A program made the translations under genes and the position numbers. From NCBI RefSeq assembly GCF_002802985.1, contig NZ_NVPT01000028.1:1-37873 (forward strand): a DNA stretch of 37,873 bases. The letters are read 5' to 3'. Under the pieces are notes generated by a model, which was not told where the DNA came from, made no database searches, and worked only from the letters and a program-made list of their open reading frames with translations. This DNA comes from Geodermatophilus chilensis. GTDB lineage: Bacteria; Actinomycetota; Actinomycetes; Mycobacteriales; Geodermatophilaceae. Positions 2,283 through 10,488 of this stretch are shown here, in pieces (the first letter of the stretch is position 1; the number at the start of each line of letters is the position of its first letter).

Positions 2283-3854
2283 GTGAGCGAGAGCGGGAGG
2301 GGGACGACGTCCCGGCCGGGGGGGACCGACCCGCTGACCCTCGCCGACCTCGCCGACCTGCTCGGCCCGCCCGTCCAGGGCGACCCCGCCACCGCGGTCG
2401 CCGGCGTGACGCTGGCCTCGGGTGAGGCCGGCCCCGGAGACCTCTACGCCGCCCTCCCCGGCGCCCGCACCCACGGGGCGCGGTACGCCGCCGATGCCGC
2501 GGCGCGCGGGGCGGTCGCCGTCCTGACCGACCCCACCGGCCGCGACGAGGCCGCCGCGACCGGCCTGCCGGTGTGCGTCGTCGAGGACCCCCGCGCGCTG
2601 CTCGGCGCCGTGGCCGCCCGCGTCTACGGGGAGCCGGCCCGGCGGATGCAGGTCATCGGGATCACCGGCACCAACGGCAAGACGACGACCAGCTACCTCG
2701 TCGAGGCGGGCCTGGCCGCCGCCGGCCGCGGCACCGGCCTGGTCGGCACGGTGGAGACCCGCACCCGTGGCCGCGCCGCCGACGGGACGCCCACCGTCAC
2801 CACCCTGCCCAGCGTGCGCACGACGCCGGAGGCGCCGGCCCTGCACGCGCTGCTGGCCCGGATGGCCGACTCCGGCGTGCAGACCGTCGTCATGGAGGTC
2901 TCCAGTCACGCGCTCGTGCTCGGCCGGGTCGGTGGCATCCCGTTCGCCGCGGCCGGGTTCACCAACCTCGGCCGCGACCACCTGGACTTCCACGCCGACA
3001 TCGAGGACTACTTCCAGGCCAAGGCGCGCCTCTTCGACGGCCGTGCCGCCGTCGAGGTGGTCGACGTCGACGACCCGTACGGGCGGCGGCTGGCCGGCAT
3101 GCTCGGCGACCGCCGCACGGTGACCGTCTCGATAGAGGGGGCCGACGCCGACTGGACGGCGACCGGCCTCGTGCCGGCCTCCGACGGCGGGACGGCGTTC
3201 ACCCTGACCGGCCCGGACGGGGGCTCCTGGCCGGCGCGGGTGCGACTGCCCGGCCGGTTCAACGTCGCCAACGCCGTCCTCGCGGTGGCGCTGCTCGACG
3301 CGGTCGGCGTGCCGGTGGAGACGGCGCTGACCGGGCTGGCCGAGACGGTGGTGCCCGGCCGGATGGAGCCGGTGGACGCCGGCCAGCCGTTCGTCGCCGT
3401 CGTCGACTACGCGCACACCCCCGACGCCGTCGGCACGGCGCTGACCGCGCTGCGCGCCGCGACGCCGGGCCGGGTGATCACCGTGCTCGGCTGCGGCGGC
3501 GACCGCGACCCCGGCAAGCGGGCGGCGATGGGGGAGGCCGCGGCGCGCGGCAGCGACCTGCTGGTCGTCACCGACGACAACCCCCGCTCCGAGGACCCCG
3601 CCGCGATCCGCGCGGCGATGCTCGCCGGCGTCCCCGCCGACCGGCGCGGCGACGTGCTGGAGATCGGCGACCGCCGCGCCGCCATCGCCGCCGCCGTCGC
3701 CCACGCCCGGCCGGGCGACGCCGTCCTCGTGGCCGGCAAGGGCCACGAGACCGGCCAGGAGGTGGCCGGCACCCTGCACCCGTTCGACGACCGCGCCGTG
3801 CTGCGCGAGGCCCTGGCGCAGCACGCGCCGGCCGGAGTGGAGCCCACCCCGTGA
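2283..3854 (+). CDS. murE: UDP-N-acetylmuramoyl-tripeptide synthetase MurE
   Basis: ATP-dependent Mur ligase that adds the third stem-peptide residue to UDP-MurNAc-L-Ala-D-Glu in the cytoplasm. The predicted protein is 523 aa, usual for MurE. An N-terminal UDP-binding domain (about 1-120) is followed by the ATP-binding loop G129-T-N-G-K133-T-T and the lysine of YFQAKARLF. The C-terminal domain contains D432-N-P-R435, the motif associated with meso-diaminopimelate-adding MurE, so DAP-type peptidoglycan is inferred. GTG 2283 was chosen because it follows TGGAG at a short distance and gives the normal length; the frame is open further upstream but that stretch is the repeat-filled spacer. TAGATT at about 2271 could be a -10 element. 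The stop overlaps the murF start by 4 nt (GTGA). Confidence 0.95.
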   Translation: MSESGRGTTSRPGGTDPLTLADLADLLGPPVQGDPATAVAGVTLASGEAGPGDLYAALPGARTHGARYAADAAARGAVAVLTDPTGRDEAAATGLPVCVVEDPRALLGAVAARVYGEPARRMQVIGITGTNGKTTTSYLVEAGLAAAGRGTGLVGTVETRTRGRAADGTPTVTTLPSVRTTPEAPALHALLARMADSGVQTVVMEVSSHALVLGRVGGIPFAAAGFTNLGRDHLDFHADIEDYFQAKARLFDGRAAVEVVDVDDPYGRRLAGMLGDRRTVTVSIEGADADWTATGLVPASDGGTAFTLTGPDGGSWPARVRLPGRFNVANAVLAVALLDAVGVPVETALTGLAETVVPGRMEPVDAGQPFVAVVDYAHTPDAVGTALTALRAATPGRVITVLGCGGDRDPGKRAAMGEAAARGSDLLVVTDDNPRSEDPAAIRAAMLAGVPADRRGDVLEIGDRRAAIAAAVAHARPGDAVLVAGKGHETGQEVAGTLHPFDDRAVLREALAQHAPAGVEPTP

Positions 3855-5254
3855 TACAGCTGAGCCTCGCCGAGGTGGCCGAGGCGGTCGGCGGTGAGCT
3901 GACGCGCGGCGACGGCACCGTCTCCGGGAAGGTCACCGTCGACTCCCGCGCCGTGGCACCGGGCGACCTGTTCGTCGCCGTGCCGGGGGAGCGGGTCGAC
4001 GGGCACGACTTCCTCGGTGCCGCCGCGGCCGCCGGCGCGGTCGCCGCGCTGACCACCCGCCCCGACGACGCGTTGCCCTGCGTGGTCGTCGACGAGTCGG
4101 TCGCCGCGCTGGGCCGGCTGGCCGCCGCGGTGCACACCCGGCTGGCGGTCGGCGATCTGGTCACGATCGGCATCACCGGCTCCTCGGGCAAGACCAGCAC
4201 CAAGGACCTGCTCGGCCAGGTGCTGACCACCGCGGGCGCCACGGTCAGCCCGCCCGGCTCGTACAACAACGACATCGGCCTGCCGCTCACCGTGCTCGAC
4301 GCCGACGGCGACACCCGTTTCCTCGTGCTCGAGATGGGCTCGCGCGGACGGGGGCACATCGCCCGGCTGTGCCGGGTGGCCCGCCCCGACGTCGGCGTCG
4401 TCCTCAACGTCGGCTCGGCGCACCTGGGCGAGTTCGGCTCGGCCGACGGGATCGCGCTCGCCAAGGGGGAGCTGGTCGAGGCGCTGCCGGCCGAGGGCAC
4501 CGCCGTCCTCAACGCCGACGACCCGCGGGTGATCGGCATGGCGCCGCGCACCCGGGCCCGCGTGGTCACCACCGGGACGTCGGCCGAGGCCGACGTGCGC
4601 GCGGAGGACGTCGTCCTCGACGAGGCCGGCCGCGCCGGCTTCACGTTGGTCGCGGGGGGTGCCCGCGCGGCGGTGCGGCTGCAGGTCGTCGGTGCGCACC
4701 AGGTCGCCAACGCCCTGTCGGCCGCCGGTGCCGCGCTGGCCTCCGGGATGACGCCGGAGGACGTCGCCGCCGCGCTGTCGGCCGCCGTGCCGCGCAGCCG
4801 CTGGCGGATGGAGGTCACCCGCCGGGACGACGGCGTGACCGTGGTCAACGACGCCTACAACGCCAACCCCGAGTCGATGCGCGCCGCGCTGGCCGCGCTG
4901 GCCGGGCTGCCCGCGCGGCGGCGGATCGCCGTGCTCGGCGCGATGGCCGAGCTGGGCCCGGGCGCGGCCGGGGAGCACGAGCGGCTGGGCCGGGACGCCG
5001 TGGCCGCCGGGATGGACCTGGTCGTGGCCGTCGGCCCGGATGCAGTAGGGATAGCCGACGGGGCGCTCGCCGCCGGTGCTCGCGAGGACCGCGACACGGA
5101 CAGGGGCGCGGTCCGCGTGCCCGACCGGGCGGCCGCCCGGGAACTGCTGACGGAGGTGCTGGTGCCCGGTGACGTCGTGCTGGTGAAGGCCAGCCGGTCC
5201 TACGGGCTCGAGGTGCTCGCGGCCGACCTGCTCGCCCCCGGGGCAGGCGCGTGA
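3851..5254 (+). CDS. murF: UDP-N-acetylmuramoyl-tripeptide--D-alanyl-D-alanine ligase MurF
   Basis: Mur ligase that adds D-Ala-D-Ala to the UDP-MurNAc-tripeptide and so completes the pentapeptide precursor. The protein is 467 aa, normal for the family. The N-terminal domain contains VDSRAVAPGDLFVAV (about 32-46). The nucleotide-binding loop is G110-S-S-G-K114-T-S-T. The central domain has SYNNDIGLPLT, and the MurF-typical segment VVNDAYNANPESMRAAL separates it from MurE and MurC. The GTG start overlaps the murE stop (GTGA, 3851-3854), and the murF stop overlaps the mraY start in the same way, so translation is probably coupled across all three genes. The frame stays open far upstream inside murE, but that part has the character of an out-of-frame shadow. 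Confidence 0.95.
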   Translation: MIQLSLAEVAEAVGGELTRGDGTVSGKVTVDSRAVAPGDLFVAVPGERVDGHDFLGAAAAAGAVAALTTRPDDALPCVVVDESVAALGRLAAAVHTRLAVGDLVTIGITGSSGKTSTKDLLGQVLTTAGATVSPPGSYNNDIGLPLTVLDADGDTRFLVLEMGSRGRGHIARLCRVARPDVGVVLNVGSAHLGEFGSADGIALAKGELVEALPAEGTAVLNADDPRVIGMAPRTRARVVTTGTSAEADVRAEDVVLDEAGRAGFTLVAGGARAAVRLQVVGAHQVANALSAAGAALASGMTPEDVAAALSAAVPRSRWRMEVTRRDDGVTVVNDAYNANPESMRAALAALAGLPARRRIAVLGAMAELGPGAAGEHERLGRDAVAAGMDLVVAVGPDAVGIADGALAAGAREDRDTDRGAVRVPDRAAARELLTEVLVPGDVVLVKASRSYGLEVLAADLLAPGAGA

Positions 5255-6330
5255 GATCCATCCTCATCGCGGCCGCGTTCGGGCTGGTGATCTCGATCCT
5301 GGCCACGCCGGTCGCCGTGCACCTGTTCCGCCGCAAGGGCTTCGGCCAGGAGATCCGCGACGACGGGCCCGAGAGCCACCTGGCGAAGAAGGGCACGCCC
5401 ACCATGGGCGGCACCGTCATCGTCGGTGCCACGGTCGGCGGCTACCTGATCGCGCACCTGTTCCTGCTCAACCAGCCCGGCCGCGGAGTGACCGCCAGCG
5501 GCCTGTTGGTGCTCTTCCTCATGGTGGGCCTGGGCACCGTCGGCTTCCTCGACGACTACCTGAAGATCCGCTTCCGGCGCAGCCTCGGGCTGAACAAGAC
5601 CGCCAAGCTCGTCGGCCAGCTCGTCGTCGGCGTGGCCTTCGCGGTCCTGGCGCTGAACTTCCCCGACGAGGCCGGCATCACCCCGGCCTCGGAGTTCGTC
5701 TCCTACGTCCGCGACATCGACCCGCTCTTCCTGGGGTCGTTCGGCTTCGTCGTCCTGGCCTACCTGTTCATCGCCGGGTTCTCCAACGCCGTGAACCTGA
5801 CCGACGGCCTGGACGGGCTGGCGGCCGGCTGCTCGGCGATGGTCTGCGGCGCCTACACGATCATCTCGTTCTGGCAGTTCACCCACGACTGCACCAGCGA
5901 GGCCATCGCCGGCTGCTACGAGGTGCGCGACCCGCTCGACGTCACGCTGGTCGCCGCCGCCGGGCTCGGCGCCTGCCTGGGCTTCCTGTGGTGGAACACC
6001 AGCCCCGCGCGGATCTTCATGGGCGACACCGGCTCGCTCGCCCTCGGCGGGCTGCTGGCCGGCCTGGCCGTGGTCACCCGCACCGAGCTGCTGCTCGTCG
6101 TCCTCGGTGGGTTGTTCGTCGCGGTCACGCTGTCGGTGGTCATCCAGGTGGCCTTCTTCCGCGCCACCCGGCGCCGGGTGTTCCGGATGGCCCCGCTGCA
6201 CCACCACTTCGAGCTGGCCGGCTGGACCGAGAACACGGTGATCGTCCGCTTCTGGCTGGTGACCGGGATGTCGGTCGCCTTCGGGCTGGGCCTCTTCTAC
6301 GCCGACTGGCTGACCGTCACGGGCCTGTGA
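5251..6330 (+). CDS. mraY: Phospho-N-acetylmuramoyl-pentapeptide transferase MraY
   Basis: Integral membrane enzyme that transfers phospho-MurNAc-pentapeptide from UDP to undecaprenyl (or decaprenyl) phosphate to give lipid I. The protein is 359 aa with about ten hydrophobic segments, as expected. Conserved acidic motifs are present: D101-D102-Y-L-K105, NLTDGLDGLAAG with D185 and D188, and FMGDTGSLALG with D259, plus PLHHHFE near the C-terminus. The GTG start overlaps the murF stop (GTGA). In most actinobacteria murD follows directly; here 71 bp separate the stop from the preferred ftsW start and murD is missing. Confidence in the identity is very high. Confidence 0.96.
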   Translation: MRSILIAAAFGLVISILATPVAVHLFRRKGFGQEIRDDGPESHLAKKGTPTMGGTVIVGATVGGYLIAHLFLLNQPGRGVTASGLLVLFLMVGLGTVGFLDDYLKIRFRRSLGLNKTAKLVGQLVVGVAFAVLALNFPDEAGITPASEFVSYVRDIDPLFLGSFGFVVLAYLFIAGFSNAVNLTDGLDGLAAGCSAMVCGAYTIISFWQFTHDCTSEAIAGCYEVRDPLDVTLVAAAGLGACLGFLWWNTSPARIFMGDTGSLALGGLLAGLAVVTRTELLLVVLGGLFVAVTLSVVIQVAFFRATRRRVFRMAPLHHHFELAGWTENTVIVRFWLVTGMSVAFGLGLFYADWLTVTGL

Positions 6331-6401
6331 GTCAGGAGAGGCTGCTGCGACACGCCCCGACGGTGCGCCGGGAGACCCGCCCCAGCGGCGACGATGGCCG
6401 G

Positions 6402-7940
6402 ATGCAGTCCTCCGGCGTTCCGACCGCTCCCGGGCGGCGCCGGACCGCGGGGACCGGGCGCAGGACGCCGGTCCGCCGGTTCGCGCCGCCGCCCTGGCTC
6501 GACGGCCCCATGACCAGCTTCCAGCTGGTCGTCGGCGCGGCCGGCATGCTCCTGGCCATCGGCCTGGTCATGGTGTTCTCCGCCTCGGCGATCGAGGCCG
6601 CGCTCAACGACCAGCCCGCCTGGCGGCCCGGCGTCGACCAGGTCGTCTTCGCCGTCATCGGCCTGGGTGCGCTGCTGGTGGCGGTGCGGTTGCCGGTCGG
6701 GCTGGTCCGCCGCTGGGCGCCGATCGGCCTGGTGGTCGCGGCGGTGCTGCTCGTCGCGGTGCTCGTCCCGGGCATCGGCATGCAGCTCAACGGCTCCCGC
6801 GCCTGGATCGACCTGGGCTTCACCAACTTCCAGCCCTCCGAGCTCGCCAAGCTGGTGTTCGCGCTGTGGGGCGCGCACATCCTGGCGATGCGCGACCGCT
6901 TCCTGACCGTCCGGACGCTGCTGGTGCCGCTGCTGCCGGTGTTCGCCGTCCTGTCGGTCCTGCTCATCCTCGAGCCGGACTTCGGCGGGGTGGTCAGCCT
7001 CGGCCTGGTCCTCGTCGGCCTGCTGTGGGCCGGGGGCCTGCCGGGCCGCTGGTTCGCCGGGTTCGCCGCCGCGGCCGCCGCGGCCGTGGTGCTCATGGTC
7101 GCCGTCGCGCCCTACCGCATGGAGCGGATCACCTCGTTCCTCGACCCGTTCGCCGACCCGTCGGACACCGGCTTCCAGGCCATCCGCGGCTTCTACGCGC
7201 TCGCCACCGGTGGGCTCTGGGGCGTGGGGCTGGGCAACAGCGCGATGAAGTGGAACCTGCTGCCCGAGGCGGAGTCGGACTACATCTTCGCGATCATCGG
7301 TGAGGAGCTCGGCTTCCTCGGCTGCCTGGTCGTGGTCGCCCTCTACGGCGTGCTGGCCTGGGCCGGCTTCCGCATCGCCCGGCGCACCGCCGACCGGTTC
7401 GTGCAGCTGGCCTGCGTGGCGATCACCGTGTGGCTGGTCGGCCAGGCGGCACTCAACATGGGCTACGTGGTGGGTCTGCTGCCGGTCACCGGCCTGACGC
7501 TGCCGCTGGTCTCCGCCGGCGGCACCTCGCTGGTGCTCACCCTGTTCATCGTGGGCCTGCTCATCCGCTTCGCCCGCTCCGAGCCCGAGGCGATCGAGCA
7601 CCTGCGCCGCGCCGACCGCGGCCGGCTGTCCCGCTGGCTGCTGCCGGCGCCCGAGCAGGCCGTCGGCGCGGTGTTCCCGCGCCGCGCCCGCCGTCCCGAG
7701 CAGCCCGACGAGCGCCCCGGCCGCGCACCCGGGCGTCCCGCCCGCCGCGCCGCCGTCACCGGCGCACGCACCGTCGCCCGCGTCGTCCCGGTCCCGCCCG
7801 GGGAGCGCGTCCCGCGCGAGCGGGTGCCCGCTCGTGAGCGGCGGACGACGGAGGGCCGCGGCCGGGTGCCCGAGGCCCGCCGGCAGCCGCCGCCGCGGGC
7901 CCGGGCCACGGCCCCCGAGTCCCCGCGGCGACCCCGATGA
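6402..7940 (+). CDS. ftsW: Lipid II polymerase FtsW (SEDS family)
   Basis: SEDS-family glycosyltransferase that polymerises lipid II at the septum with its partner FtsI. From ATG 6402 the protein is 512 aa: a basic N-terminal tail, about ten membrane segments from about residue 40 to 390, then an Arg/Pro-rich tail of about 110 residues predicted to be cytoplasmic. Family signatures include [39 protein letters not shown] and [10 protein letters not shown]. An alternative start is GTG 6327, which would overlap the mraY stop as GTGA and add 25 residues; I prefer 6402 because the added stretch uses AGT, AGG and CGA codons that are rare here. The stop overlaps the murG start as ATGA. FtsW is preferred over RodA because of the neighbours. 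Confidence 0.94.
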
Positions 7941-9034
7941 GCGTCAGCGTGGTCCTCGCCGGGGGCGGCACCGGCGGGCACATCGAGCCGATGCTCGCCC
8001 TGGCCGACGCGCTGCTGCGCCGCGGCGCGGTGGAGGGCGGCCTGCGGATCACCTGCCTGGGCACCGCGCGCGGCATGGAGACCCGGCTGGTCCCCGCCCG
8101 CGGCTACGACCTGCGACTGATCCCGCCGGTGCCGCTGCCGCGCAAGCCCACCGTCGACCTGCTGCGGGTGCCTGGCCGGGTGGTGCGCTCGGTGTCCGAG
8201 ACCCGGGCGCTGCTGCGCGAGCTGTCCGCGGACGTCGTCGTCGGCTTCGGCGGCTACGTGGCGCTGCCGGCCTACCTGGCCGCCCGCCGGGAGCGGGTGC
8301 CGGTCGTCGTGCACGAGCAGAACGCGCTGCCGGGCCTGGCCAACCGGATCGGCGCGCGGGTCGCCGCGTGGGTGGCGGTCACCGTGCCCGGCACGCCGCT
8401 GCGCGGCGCCGAGCACGTCGGCATGCCGCTGCGGACGGCGATCAGCACGCTGGACCGCCCCGCCCGCCGCGCCGAGGCCCGCGCCGCCTTCGGCCTGGAC
8501 CCCGAGCGGCCGACGCTGCTGGTCTTCGGCGGGTCGCAGGGCGCGGCCTCGCTCAACCGGGCCGCCGTCGGCGCCGCCGACGCGCTCACCGCGGCCGGGG
8601 TGCAGGTGCTGCACGCCCGCGGCCCCAAGAACACCGACGTGACCGTGCCGCCCCGCGCGCCCGGGCACGCCCCCTACGTCGTCGTCGACTACCTCGAGCG
8701 CATGGACCTCGCCTACGCCGCCGCCGACCTGGCCCTGTGCCGGTCCGGCGCGGTCACCGTGGCGGAGCTGTCCGCCGTCGGGCTGCCGGCGGTGTTCGTG
8801 CCGCTGCCGATCGGCAACGGCGAGCAGCGGCTCAACGCCCTGCCCGTCGTCGACGCCGGGGGAGGACTGCTGGTGGACGACGCCGACCTGTCGCCGTCCT
8901 GGATCGAGGAGCACGTCATCCCGATGGTCACCGACCCGGCCACGCTGGCCCGGTACGCCGAGCACGCCGCGGCCGCCGGCGCCCGGGACGCCGACGAGCG
9001 CCTGGCCGACATCGTGCTGGAGGTGGCCGAGTGA
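7937..9034 (+). CDS. murG: UDP-GlcNAc:lipid I N-acetylglucosamine transferase MurG
   Basis: GT28 glycosyltransferase on the inner membrane face that adds GlcNAc to lipid I to make lipid II. The protein is 365 aa, normal for MurG. The N-terminal glycine-rich loop G9-G-G-T-G-G-H15 and FGGYVALPA with [13 protein letters not shown] belong to the acceptor-binding half. FGGSQGA and [10 protein letters not shown] (C268 to E277), followed by [10 protein letters not shown], form the UDP-GlcNAc site in the C-terminal half. The ATG start overlaps the ftsW stop, and the stop overlaps the murC GTG start, so coupled translation is likely on both sides. Confidence 0.96.
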
Positions 9035-10488
9035 GTGCCGCTGCGGTGGCCGCGTGGGCCGACCCGGTGCCGAGCCTCGAGGAGCTCGGCGCCGTGCACT
9101 TCGTCGGCATCGGCGGGGCCGGGATGAGCGGCATCGCCCGCATCCTGCTGGCCCGCGGCGTCCGGGTCTCCGGCAGCGACCGGCGCGACACCCCGACGCT
9201 GCTGGCGCTGCGGGCGCTGGGCGCCCGCGTGCAGCTCGGCCACGACCCGGCGAACCTCGGGGACGCCGACACCGTCGTCGTCTCCACCGCCATCCGCGAC
9301 GACAACCCCGAGCTCGCCACCGCCCGCGAGCGCGGCCTGCGGGTGCTGCCCCGCGCGGTCGCGCTGGCCGCGGTGATGGCCGGCCGGCGCAGCGTCGCGG
9401 TGGCCGGCACGCACGGGAAGACCTCGACGACCTCGATGCTCACCGTCGCGGTGCAGGCCTGCGGCGTGGACCCCTCCTTCGCCATCGGCGGCGACCTCAA
9501 CGAGTCGGGCAGCAACGCGCACGCCGGCGAGGGCGACGTCTTCGTCGCCGAGGCCGACGAGAGCGACCGCTCCTTCCTGCTGCTGGCCCCGTACGGCGCG
9601 ATCGTCACCAACGTCGAGGCCGACCACCTCGACAACTACGGCGACCTCGCCGCGGTGGAGGCCGCCTTCGACCGGTTCCTGCAGACCATCGACCCGGCCG
9701 GTTTCCTGGTGCTGTGCGCCGACGACCCCGGCGCGGCCCGGCTGCGCACCGTGCCCACCCCGGCCCGGGTGCGCACCTACGGCACGGCCGAGGACAGCGA
9801 CCTGCGGCTGGTCGACGTCGAGGTGGGCCCGGAGACGACCGCCTGGACCGCCGTCCTCGACGGCGAGGTGCTCGGCCGGGTGTCGATCCGAGTGCCCGGC
9901 GAGCACATGGCCCGCAACAGCGCCGCCGCGCTGCTGGCCGGGCTCGAGCTGGGCCTGCCCGCCGAGAGCCTGATCGCCGGGCTCGGCCGCTTCGGCGGGG
10001 TGCACCGGCGTTTCGAGCTCAAGGGCAGCGTCGGCGGGGTGCGGGTCTACGACGACTACGCCCACCACCCGACCGAGGTGGAGGCCCAGCTGCGCGCCGC
10101 GCGGGCGGTGGCCGGCGCCGGCCGGGTGGTCGTGGCCTTCCAGCCGCACCTGTACAGCCGCACCCGGCAGTTCGCGGCCGCGTTCGGCGCGGCGCTGGGC
10201 CTGGCCGACGAGGTCGTGGTCATGGACGTCTACGGCGCCCGCGAGGACCCGGTCCCCGGCGTCACCGGCGCGATGGTGGCCGACGCGGTCGCGCTGCCGG
10301 CCGGGGGGGTGCACTTCGAGCCGTCCTGGTCGGCCGCGGCCCCGGCGCTGGCCGAGCGGGCGCGGCCCGGCGACCTGGTGATCACCATGGGCGCGGGCAA
10401 CGTCTCGATGGTCGGCCCGGAGGTGCTCGAGGCGCTGCGGGCCCGGTTCGCGGCGGACGGCGGCGAGCCGGGGGACCCCGCGCGGTGA
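9031..10488 (+). CDS. murC: UDP-N-acetylmuramate--L-alanine ligase MurC
   Basis: First Mur ligase of the stem-peptide pathway, joining L-alanine to UDP-MurNAc with ATP. The protein is 485 aa, normal for the family. The N-terminal Rossmann-like domain begins with [15 protein letters not shown], the MurC hallmark. The ATP loop is G126-T-H-G-K130-T-S-T. The acidic segment [13 protein letters not shown] and the C-terminal [11 protein letters not shown] are also typical of MurC. The glycine-rich start and YAHHPTE distinguish it from MurD, so it does not account for the missing murD. GTG 9031 overlaps the murG stop (GTGA), and the stop overlaps ftsQ. Confidence 0.96.

Follow-up and report, generated by a model that had tools for sequence, protein, structure and literature searches.

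What became of murD in the division and cell wall (dcw) cluster of Geodermatophilus chilensis, and what now occupies its place between mraY and ftsW? The window analysed here is the whole 37,873-nucleotide stretch of contig NZ_NVPT01000028.1 (assembly GCF_002802985.1), in which the mraY stop codon (6330) is followed after 71 bp by the ftsW ATG (6402), without murD. An original prediction held that murD was missing from this joint, as expected if a gene was lost or moved, and that it should lie elsewhere in the genome, MurD being essential. We found that the gene is indeed missing (mraY, TIGR00445, and ftsW, TIGR02614, with nothing MurD-like between them) and that the prediction had overlooked a conserved piece of murD inside the 71-bp joint. 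Probably, a distinct enzyme pair, MurD2 and MurL, replaced murD, and a relic of about 60 bp stayed since it carries ftsW's own promoter. The features of the joint are as follows:

5251 to 6330, + strand: mraY (TIGR00445, E 3.5e-92), with a 4-nt GTGA overlap with murF
6327 to 6330, + strand: GTGA overlapping the mraY stop codon, in the ftsW frame with no stop codon between, hence a possible upstream start
6343 to 6405, + strand: murD relic (3' part), located with an nhmmer profile of murD segments and read as the ftsW promoter region
6348 to 6354, + strand: CGACACG, a WhiA-type GACAC box (GACAC at 6349-6353), equivalent to the Arg-His codons CGA CAC in intact murD
6390 to 6395, + strand: GACGAT, a -10-like element separated from the box by exactly 35 nt
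6402 to 6404, + strand: ATG, 6 nt after the -10-like element, the predicted transcription and translation start of a leaderless ftsW
6402 to 7940, + strand: ftsW (TIGR02614, E 4e-113), from ATG 6402, with an alternative start at 6327

The MurD2/MurL pair and its distribution

The assembly comprises 374 contigs and has a completeness of 99.98%. A search of this nearly complete genome with TIGR01087 at E<=1e-40 gave a single match, on contig C355, so that MurC, MurE and MurF of the window are not MurD, as had been predicted, and canonical MurD was not found. The matching gene (C355:21852-23180, minus strand; 442 amino acids; E 3e-72) encodes a MurD-like protein of the MurD2 type, and directly downstream lies the gene for a 450-amino-acid MurL homologue (NF041275, E 3.4e-94, 316 bits), the match covering profile positions 8-444 of 447. 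This homologue shares 35.3% identity with the protein annotated as murL in a Xanthomonas sacchari record and had no Pfam match at E<=1e-3. At E<=1e-3 the genome gave 0 MurI matches (10/14 control genomes were positive), and D-amino-acid transaminase (TIGR01121, a narrow model exceeded by 1/14 controls) was over its cut-off in 0/12 genomes, with weak partial matches in 12/12, murD-bearing ones included. The genes murD2 and murL were adjacent in 20/20 regions examined.

Passages of a review (PMC8788868) describe how, in Xanthomonas oryzae, MurD2 adds L-glutamate (L-Glu) and MurL epimerises with ATP, how the changes E197D/R358K switched X. oryzae MurD2 to D-Glu, and how K319T let Escherichia coli MurD accept L-Glu. 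In our alignment, the residues of the C355 protein opposite D182, K319, K348, A414 and L416 of E. coli MurD are E, L, R, P and Y, and its E184, R338 and P415 are of the MurD2 type. The K348 position is R in 20/20 MurD2s and K in 39/39 canonical MurDs, the K319 position is L or I in 20/20 versus K in 39/39, and the A414 position is P in 19/20 versus A in 39/39. Tested as a canonical MurD, the C355 protein thus fell outside the canonical group, lacking K at the K319 and K348 positions. In a tree, 20 MurL-linked MurD-like proteins were split from six canonical MurDs by a fully supported branch, suggesting that the C355 gene is not a recently relocated murD; all trees used a plain LG+G4 model, and the MurL part of the MurD2/MurL tree was flagged for long branches meeting. 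Because MurD2 signatures occur together with a MurL neighbour and no MurI was found, L-Glu is probably ligated by MurD2 and then epimerised by MurL in this organism. Hence the argument that MurD is essential and must be elsewhere does not hold as stated, since the distinct pair apparently covers the step; the genome-wide search that had been proposed returned no canonical MurD and only the MurD2-type protein on C355. Of the two fates foreseen for the gene, loss is upheld and a simple move is not, as the only MurD-like protein lies outside canonical MurD and differs at stereospecificity positions.

The arrangement resembles the known pathway (X. oryzae XOO_1320/XOO_1319; Micromonospora, Salinispora) in its adjoining MurD-like ligase and MurL homologue, its MurD2-type residues, and the lack of a MurI match and, as far as the narrow TIGR01121 model shows, of a D-amino-acid transaminase over the cut-off. 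It differs in that the studied genus has the order murD2-murL beside nhaA and fur/ygfZ, and its MurL is 33-41% identical to the MurLs of other lineages examined. The actinobacteria with MurD2/MurL listed in passages of the review (PMC8788868) are Micromonospora, Actinoplanes, Verrucosispora and Salinispora; the studied family is missing from that list.

In a sample of 200 genomes of the order, with MurL and MurI matches taken at E<=1e-3, 45 had a MurL match (0/14 control genomes did), of which 43 were full-length, one was a fragment (G005) and one was weak (G024, which keeps murD and MurI). MurI was over the cut-off in 0/43 genomes with full-length MurL, eight of which had weak sub-cut-off matches, two with E about 1e-25 (G163, G185); by subtraction, 152 of the 155 MurL-lacking genomes had a MurI match. 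The studied family contains nine MurL-positive genomes, namely 8/8 of the studied genus and 1/2 of another genus, with MurI over the cut-off in 0/9, and 19 MurL-lacking genomes, all with MurI (E<=1.6e-61) and a strong murD. Full-length MurL was also present in six further families (f2, f4, f8, f10, f11 and f16); five of these also contain MurL-lacking genomes, and the other sampled genome of f11 is G024. Among named strains, MurL without MurI was found in Geodermatophilus obscurus DSM 43161 and Modestobacter sp. DSM 44400, and MurI without MurL in Modestobacter sp. VKM Ac-2984, Klenkia brasiliensis, Blastococcus xanthinilyticus and Pseudonocardia oceani; the order sample also includes at least three of the last four. 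On a mraY tree of 30 genomes, the MurL trait needs at least six changes, with gain and loss not distinguished. The MurL and MurD2 trees pair G120 (studied family) with G161 (f10) with moderate support (92/84 and 85/75), and the mraY tree differs. The distribution suggests that MurD2/MurL replaced murD and murI repeatedly, and the pair would have been acquired by transfer.

We compared the mraY-ftsW joint in 30 chosen genomes, 21 MurL-positive (of the 43 found) and nine MurL-lacking. murD follows mraY in 9/9 of the latter and lies between mraY and ftsW in 0/21 of the former, in 20 of which ftsW is within about 1 kb of mraY; the twenty-first is G161, whose locus (L114, about 5790-8715) has about 2.9 kb between mraY and ftsW and no murD match within. 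The comparison across the family that had been suggested thus showed the murD-less joint in 8/8 genomes of the genus and in G. obscurus DSM 43161.

Several observations accompany these distributions. In a sample of the class, G297 (C130 and C131) had both a murD of canonical strength (E 3.9e-116) and a match of MurD2 strength (E 1.7e-73), which could represent an intermediate stage or come from a mixed bin. The large mobilizable Pseudonocardia plasmids pLS1-1 (L155) and pPaSha1 (L156) each carry a MurL homologue annotated as hypothetical, in similar neighbourhoods (ParA-like, GH16, transglycosylase) and with no annotated murD-like gene within 6 kb, the gene table being incomplete; a third Pseudonocardia plasmid also gave a MurL match. 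On C355, a D-glutamate cyclase-like gene (PF14336, E 5.5e-59; L013, about 5660-6537) directly follows murL, as it does in 3/8 genomes of the genus (G000, G152, G176). We rejected it as a third pathway gene, as there was no general link and 4/7 carriers in the order sample are without MurL; the protein might remove free D-Glu no longer made by such cells. A further match in L099 was taken as an out-of-frame artefact of the query span, a gene search finding none there.

The murD relic and the composite element

In MurL-lacking relatives, the joint sequence has its counterpart inside murD, about 200-325 nt before the stop codon, where it encodes RHAPxVP...GDDGxM/V in the family. Because of this match, the 71 bp are seen to contain a murD relic; the idea that they are the old murD-ftsW intergenic region is wrong, as the element lies within murD of relatives. 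The nhmmer profile of murD segments placed 6343-6405 as its top match in 327 kb (E 1.7e-4; runner-up E 0.21), and the 57-mer at 6348-6404 was identical to murD of relative G099 at 44/57 positions, the next best place in the window, on both strands, reaching 37/57. The sequence CGACACG...GACGATGG..RTG (R, purine) is common to most MurL-positive joints.

In the window the composite element reads CGACACG-N35-GACGAT-N6-ATG, and its box begins 54 bp before the ftsW ATG. The exact motif CGACACG-N35-[GAC]A[CT][CGA]AT-N6-RTG occurred once, at 6348, in 654 kb comprising both strands of the window and of the murL regions, and a loose expression gave at most 13 matches in the same sequence, the window joint included. 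With a search expression that requires a purine-TG at set spacing, the composite was present in 18/20 murD-less joints from six families; by eye, G161, missed by the expression, has the variant CGACACG-N36-GACACT-N6-ATG before ftsW. The spacer is 35 nt in 35/35 composite-bearing murD segments and in 13/18 relics, which are no longer under coding constraint.

The Arg codon of RHAP in intact murD is CGA in 38/38 sequences of the order, versus 4.1% of 822 upstream Arg codons; this count covers 40 murD loci, 39 of them read, L149 being without RHAP by the expression and L150 (G083) having Glu. The class sample gave CGA in 23/23, versus 4.7% of 574 upstream Arg codons, with five of the 23 belonging to the same order and one of these also being among the 38; of its 30 loci, L295 and L296 had no motif, and the codon of L283 was uncounted though its murD reads TRHAPEVP. 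A codon other than CGA was seen only where there is no Arg, in G083, three f40 genomes and one f27 genome, and the three f40 genomes, which are small, show none of the composite features. The -10-like element of the class sample is often GACACT, with A2 and T6 in 23/23 CGA sequences and RTG in 22/23. The codon bias, the nearly fixed spacer and the retention of the composite in 18/20 joints together point to selection at the DNA level.

Among the matches listed (at least 118, in named stretches), the motif lay in murD in 84, in a murD-less mraY-ftsW joint in three (G. obscurus, Modestobacter sp. DSM 44400 and Geodermatophilus sp. TF02-6) and elsewhere in 31, many of the last in non-actinobacteria; a motif was counted inside murD with a 40-nt margin, and L167 was assigned to murD by eye, its murD match stopping just short. 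Two kinds of variant were also seen. In L150 (G083), murD has GAG (Glu) in place of CGA and no box, and the ftsW promoter of this lineage may have moved out of murD. In L050, L056, L058, L060 and L165, related GC-rich repeat-like insertions (such as GGGCCCCTGGAGGGCGGCCGTTCCAGCACCTCACC) lie between the mraY stop and the box, lengthening the joint with the frame preserved each time.

The predicted ftsW promoter and the ftsW start codons

According to passages of PMC3781837, GACAC is the WhiA consensus, WhiA footprints upstream of ftsW in Streptomyces venezuelae, and the authors infer an ftsW-specific promoter, the gene being in mid-operon; Table 1 there gives 269 bp from the WhiA site to the ftsW start codon, and WhiA homologues are said to occur throughout Gram-positive bacteria. 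WhiA and WhiB are mutually required at S. venezuelae ftsW in vivo, as stated in passages of PMC4850268. We read the joint as an ftsW promoter because its GACAC is the WhiA site footprinted at S. venezuelae ftsW. The class sample includes six f33 genomes in which the box precedes the murD stop by 203-212 nt and the first candidate start of ftsW by 256-352 nt, distances that would fit a location of the S. venezuelae site within murD. The likeness to the S. venezuelae promoter lies in the box, the spacing and the purine-TG inside murD, in both the order and class samples, and the difference is that here murD is gone and the box stands 54 bp before the ftsW ATG. The passages of the two papers (PMC3781837, PMC4850268) do not mention a site within murD or a fixed geometry, and the word 'murD' has 0 occurrences in either paper.

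For Mycobacterium tuberculosis, passages of PMC3898074 report that leaderless transcripts are common, that transcription starts are mostly purines and that most of them have TANNNT centred 7-12 bp upstream. GACGAT fits this pattern at A2 and T6 and in its spacing to the purine, though not at its first base. The element may be a promoter lying within murD and outliving it, from which WhiA would activate leaderless ftsW, made up of the WhiA-type box CGACACG, 35 nt, the -10-like element, 6 nt and a purine-TG as the putative transcription start, which in the studied genus would also be the start codon of leaderless ftsW. In intact murD, one DNA stretch would serve both the protein (RHAPxVP...GDDGxM/V) and the promoter, and the promoter would stay once the protein is dispensable. 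We picture murD as having been lost from the dcw cluster because the MurD2/MurL pair does its job, by a deletion that would have spared about 60 bp of its 3' part with the ftsW promoter on them.

The original prediction saw mraY-ftsW as the one interrupted joint among 4-nt overlaps. This is correct for the 71 bp to ATG 6402, but the GTG at 6327 is in frame with ftsW without a stop, so that the joint may be uninterrupted. In 5/6 murD-bearing relatives examined in the family, this GTG falls in the murD frame, and the frame from GTG to ftsW is open and continuous in 8/8 genomes of the genus and in G. obscurus DSM 43161, the species in this comparison being related, so that frame conservation is suggestive only. 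Distances from the mraY stop to the box are 14, 17, 41, 41, 80, 119, 131, 134 or 197 nt, all with the same remainder modulo three. A 4-nt overlap may thus persist at the joint, ftsW having taken over the start codon of murD, and in the studied genus translation of ftsW probably follows two routes, one coupled to mraY on the operon mRNA and one on a short promoter-specific mRNA. The purine-TG of the relic is in the ftsW frame in 8/8 genomes of the genus; elsewhere it is in frame in four and out of frame in six composite-bearing joints, so that in those six the ftsW start codon must lie elsewhere. It is off frame in G120 and Modestobacter sp. DSM 44400.

The neighbouring genes, all on the same strand, are:

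3851 to 5254, + strand: murF (TIGR01143, E 1.4e-121), its start set by the overlap
7937 to 9034, + strand: murG, an open reading frame with a 4-nt overlap with ftsW, named from the original prediction and gene order
9031 to 10488, + strand: murC, from its PF08245 and PF02875 domains and gene order, with a 4-nt overlap with murG

The overlaps predicted at the neighbouring junctions were borne out at four joints (murE/murF 3851-3854, murF/mraY 5251-5254, ftsW/murG 7937-7940 and murG/murC 9031-9034). Compared with the canonical actinobacterial cluster (murE-murF-mraY-murD-ftsW-murG-murC), the window has its remaining genes in the same order and with the same 4-nt overlaps, and differs in that its murD has shrunk to the relic. 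The window contains the Mur-ligase middle domain PF08245 three times, once each at the positions of murE, murF and murC; family search names murF only, murE and murC being named by position and domains. The whole genome has six PF08245 matches, the three in the window, one on C355 and two FolC proteins, on C318 and C2, which we rejected as MurD. The C2 protein is a second FolC-like protein (L006; 458 amino acids; TIGR01499, E 4.9e-81), and the open reading frame adjoining its gene is presumably formyltetrahydrofolate deformylase-like.

Competing explanations and significance

Several findings weigh against replacement of murD and retention of its relic as a promoter. For the enzymes, all MurL matches in the order sample stay below the NCBIfam cut-off of 700 bits, which belongs to a Xanthomonadales model (316 bits here), and the change of D182 to E, present in the C355 protein, occurs in just 12/20 MurD2s (canonical MurDs have D in 39/39). 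For the relic, the murD-segment profile by itself reaches E<=0.05 at the joint in 14/21 MurL-positive loci, gives E 1.2 to 5.7 in four and misses G115, G129 and G161; GACAC and the composite are both missing from the MurL-positive joints of the sister species G115 and G129. Five of the 18 relics have spacers of 36, 36, 36, 41 and 47 nt, the composite is missing by the expression in 4/39 murD segments, and GACAC by itself is very common. GACGAT begins with G, where the mycobacterial consensus TANNNT in the passages of PMC3898074 has T. Finally, the lineages are related, so that the joints represent fewer than 20 independent cases (at least six changes on the mraY tree).

An assembly in 374 contigs could in principle have had murD collapsed out of it, but the murD-less joint recurs in seven further genomes of the genus and in G. 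obscurus DSM 43161, the completeness is 99.98% and MurI, too, was not found; a gap is very unlikely because 0/21 chosen MurL-positive genomes have murD between mraY and ftsW, and we give the artefact practically no chance. That murD moved elsewhere and left a functionless deletion scar would be in keeping with the MurD-like gene on another contig and with the fact that essential genes can relocate. This is highly improbable, as the C355 gene groups with the MurL-linked MurD2s, adjoins murL and has R, L and P where 39/39 canonical MurDs have K, K and A, and as retention of one and the same murD piece in 18/20 joints of six families is not what one would expect of a neutral scar.

Two further explanations accept the replacement by MurD2/MurL and differ on the relic. 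It could have been kept only as coding sequence for an N-terminal leader of ftsW, not as a promoter, which would account for the reading frame that begins at GTG 6327 and crosses the relic being open and continuous with ftsW in the genus and in G. obscurus despite distances of 14 to 197 nt from the mraY stop to the box. We regard this as rather improbable, because the purine-TG is out of the ftsW frame in 6/18 composite joints, all outside the studied genus, with the motif kept, and because protein constraint leaves unexplained the CGA in all 38 Arg codons of intact murD; the 35-nt spacer in 13 of 18 relics also argues against it. Alternatively, the relic may be the ftsW promoter with its GACAC box bound by a regulator other than WhiA, such as a WhiB-like partner alone or a response regulator. 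The -10-like element is off consensus, so some activator is likely, and WhiA and WhiB need each other at S. venezuelae ftsW in vivo (passages of PMC4850268); against this, WhiA footprints at ftsW with a consensus of exactly GACAC (passages of PMC3781837), and the box lies in the corresponding place upstream of ftsW. A different regulator is thus possible but unlikely. Replacement of murD by MurD2/MurL, with the relic kept as the ftsW promoter, accounts better for these data.

Extending this beyond the genus, we find it somewhat more plausible than otherwise that in much of the class Actinomycetes the regulated ftsW promoter lies in rigid geometry in the murD coding sequence (CGACACG-N35-nAnnnT-N6-RTG), that this DNA and not the enzyme dictates the RHAP...M/V residues, that it outlives murD upon replacement by MurD2/MurL, and that in Geodermatophilus-like genomes the murD start was fused to ftsW, giving it two starts. 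The MurD2/MurL enzyme route and the WhiA site at ftsW were already known. Among the open-access papers listed in our searches, we found none placing the ftsW promoter inside murD or describing its fixed geometry or its survival after murD loss, and none naming MurL together with Geodermatophilus.

With these data, the cell-wall route through MurD2 and MurL probably reaches one more lineage of actinobacteria. A promoter that survives the loss of the gene hiding it would be a rare natural experiment, separating protein from regulatory constraint without mutagenesis, and the composite provides a testable map of the actinobacterial ftsW promoter, division being under WhiA/WhiB control in Streptomyces. 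It also carries a warning that the conserved RHAP residues of actinobacterial MurD may reflect DNA, not enzyme function.
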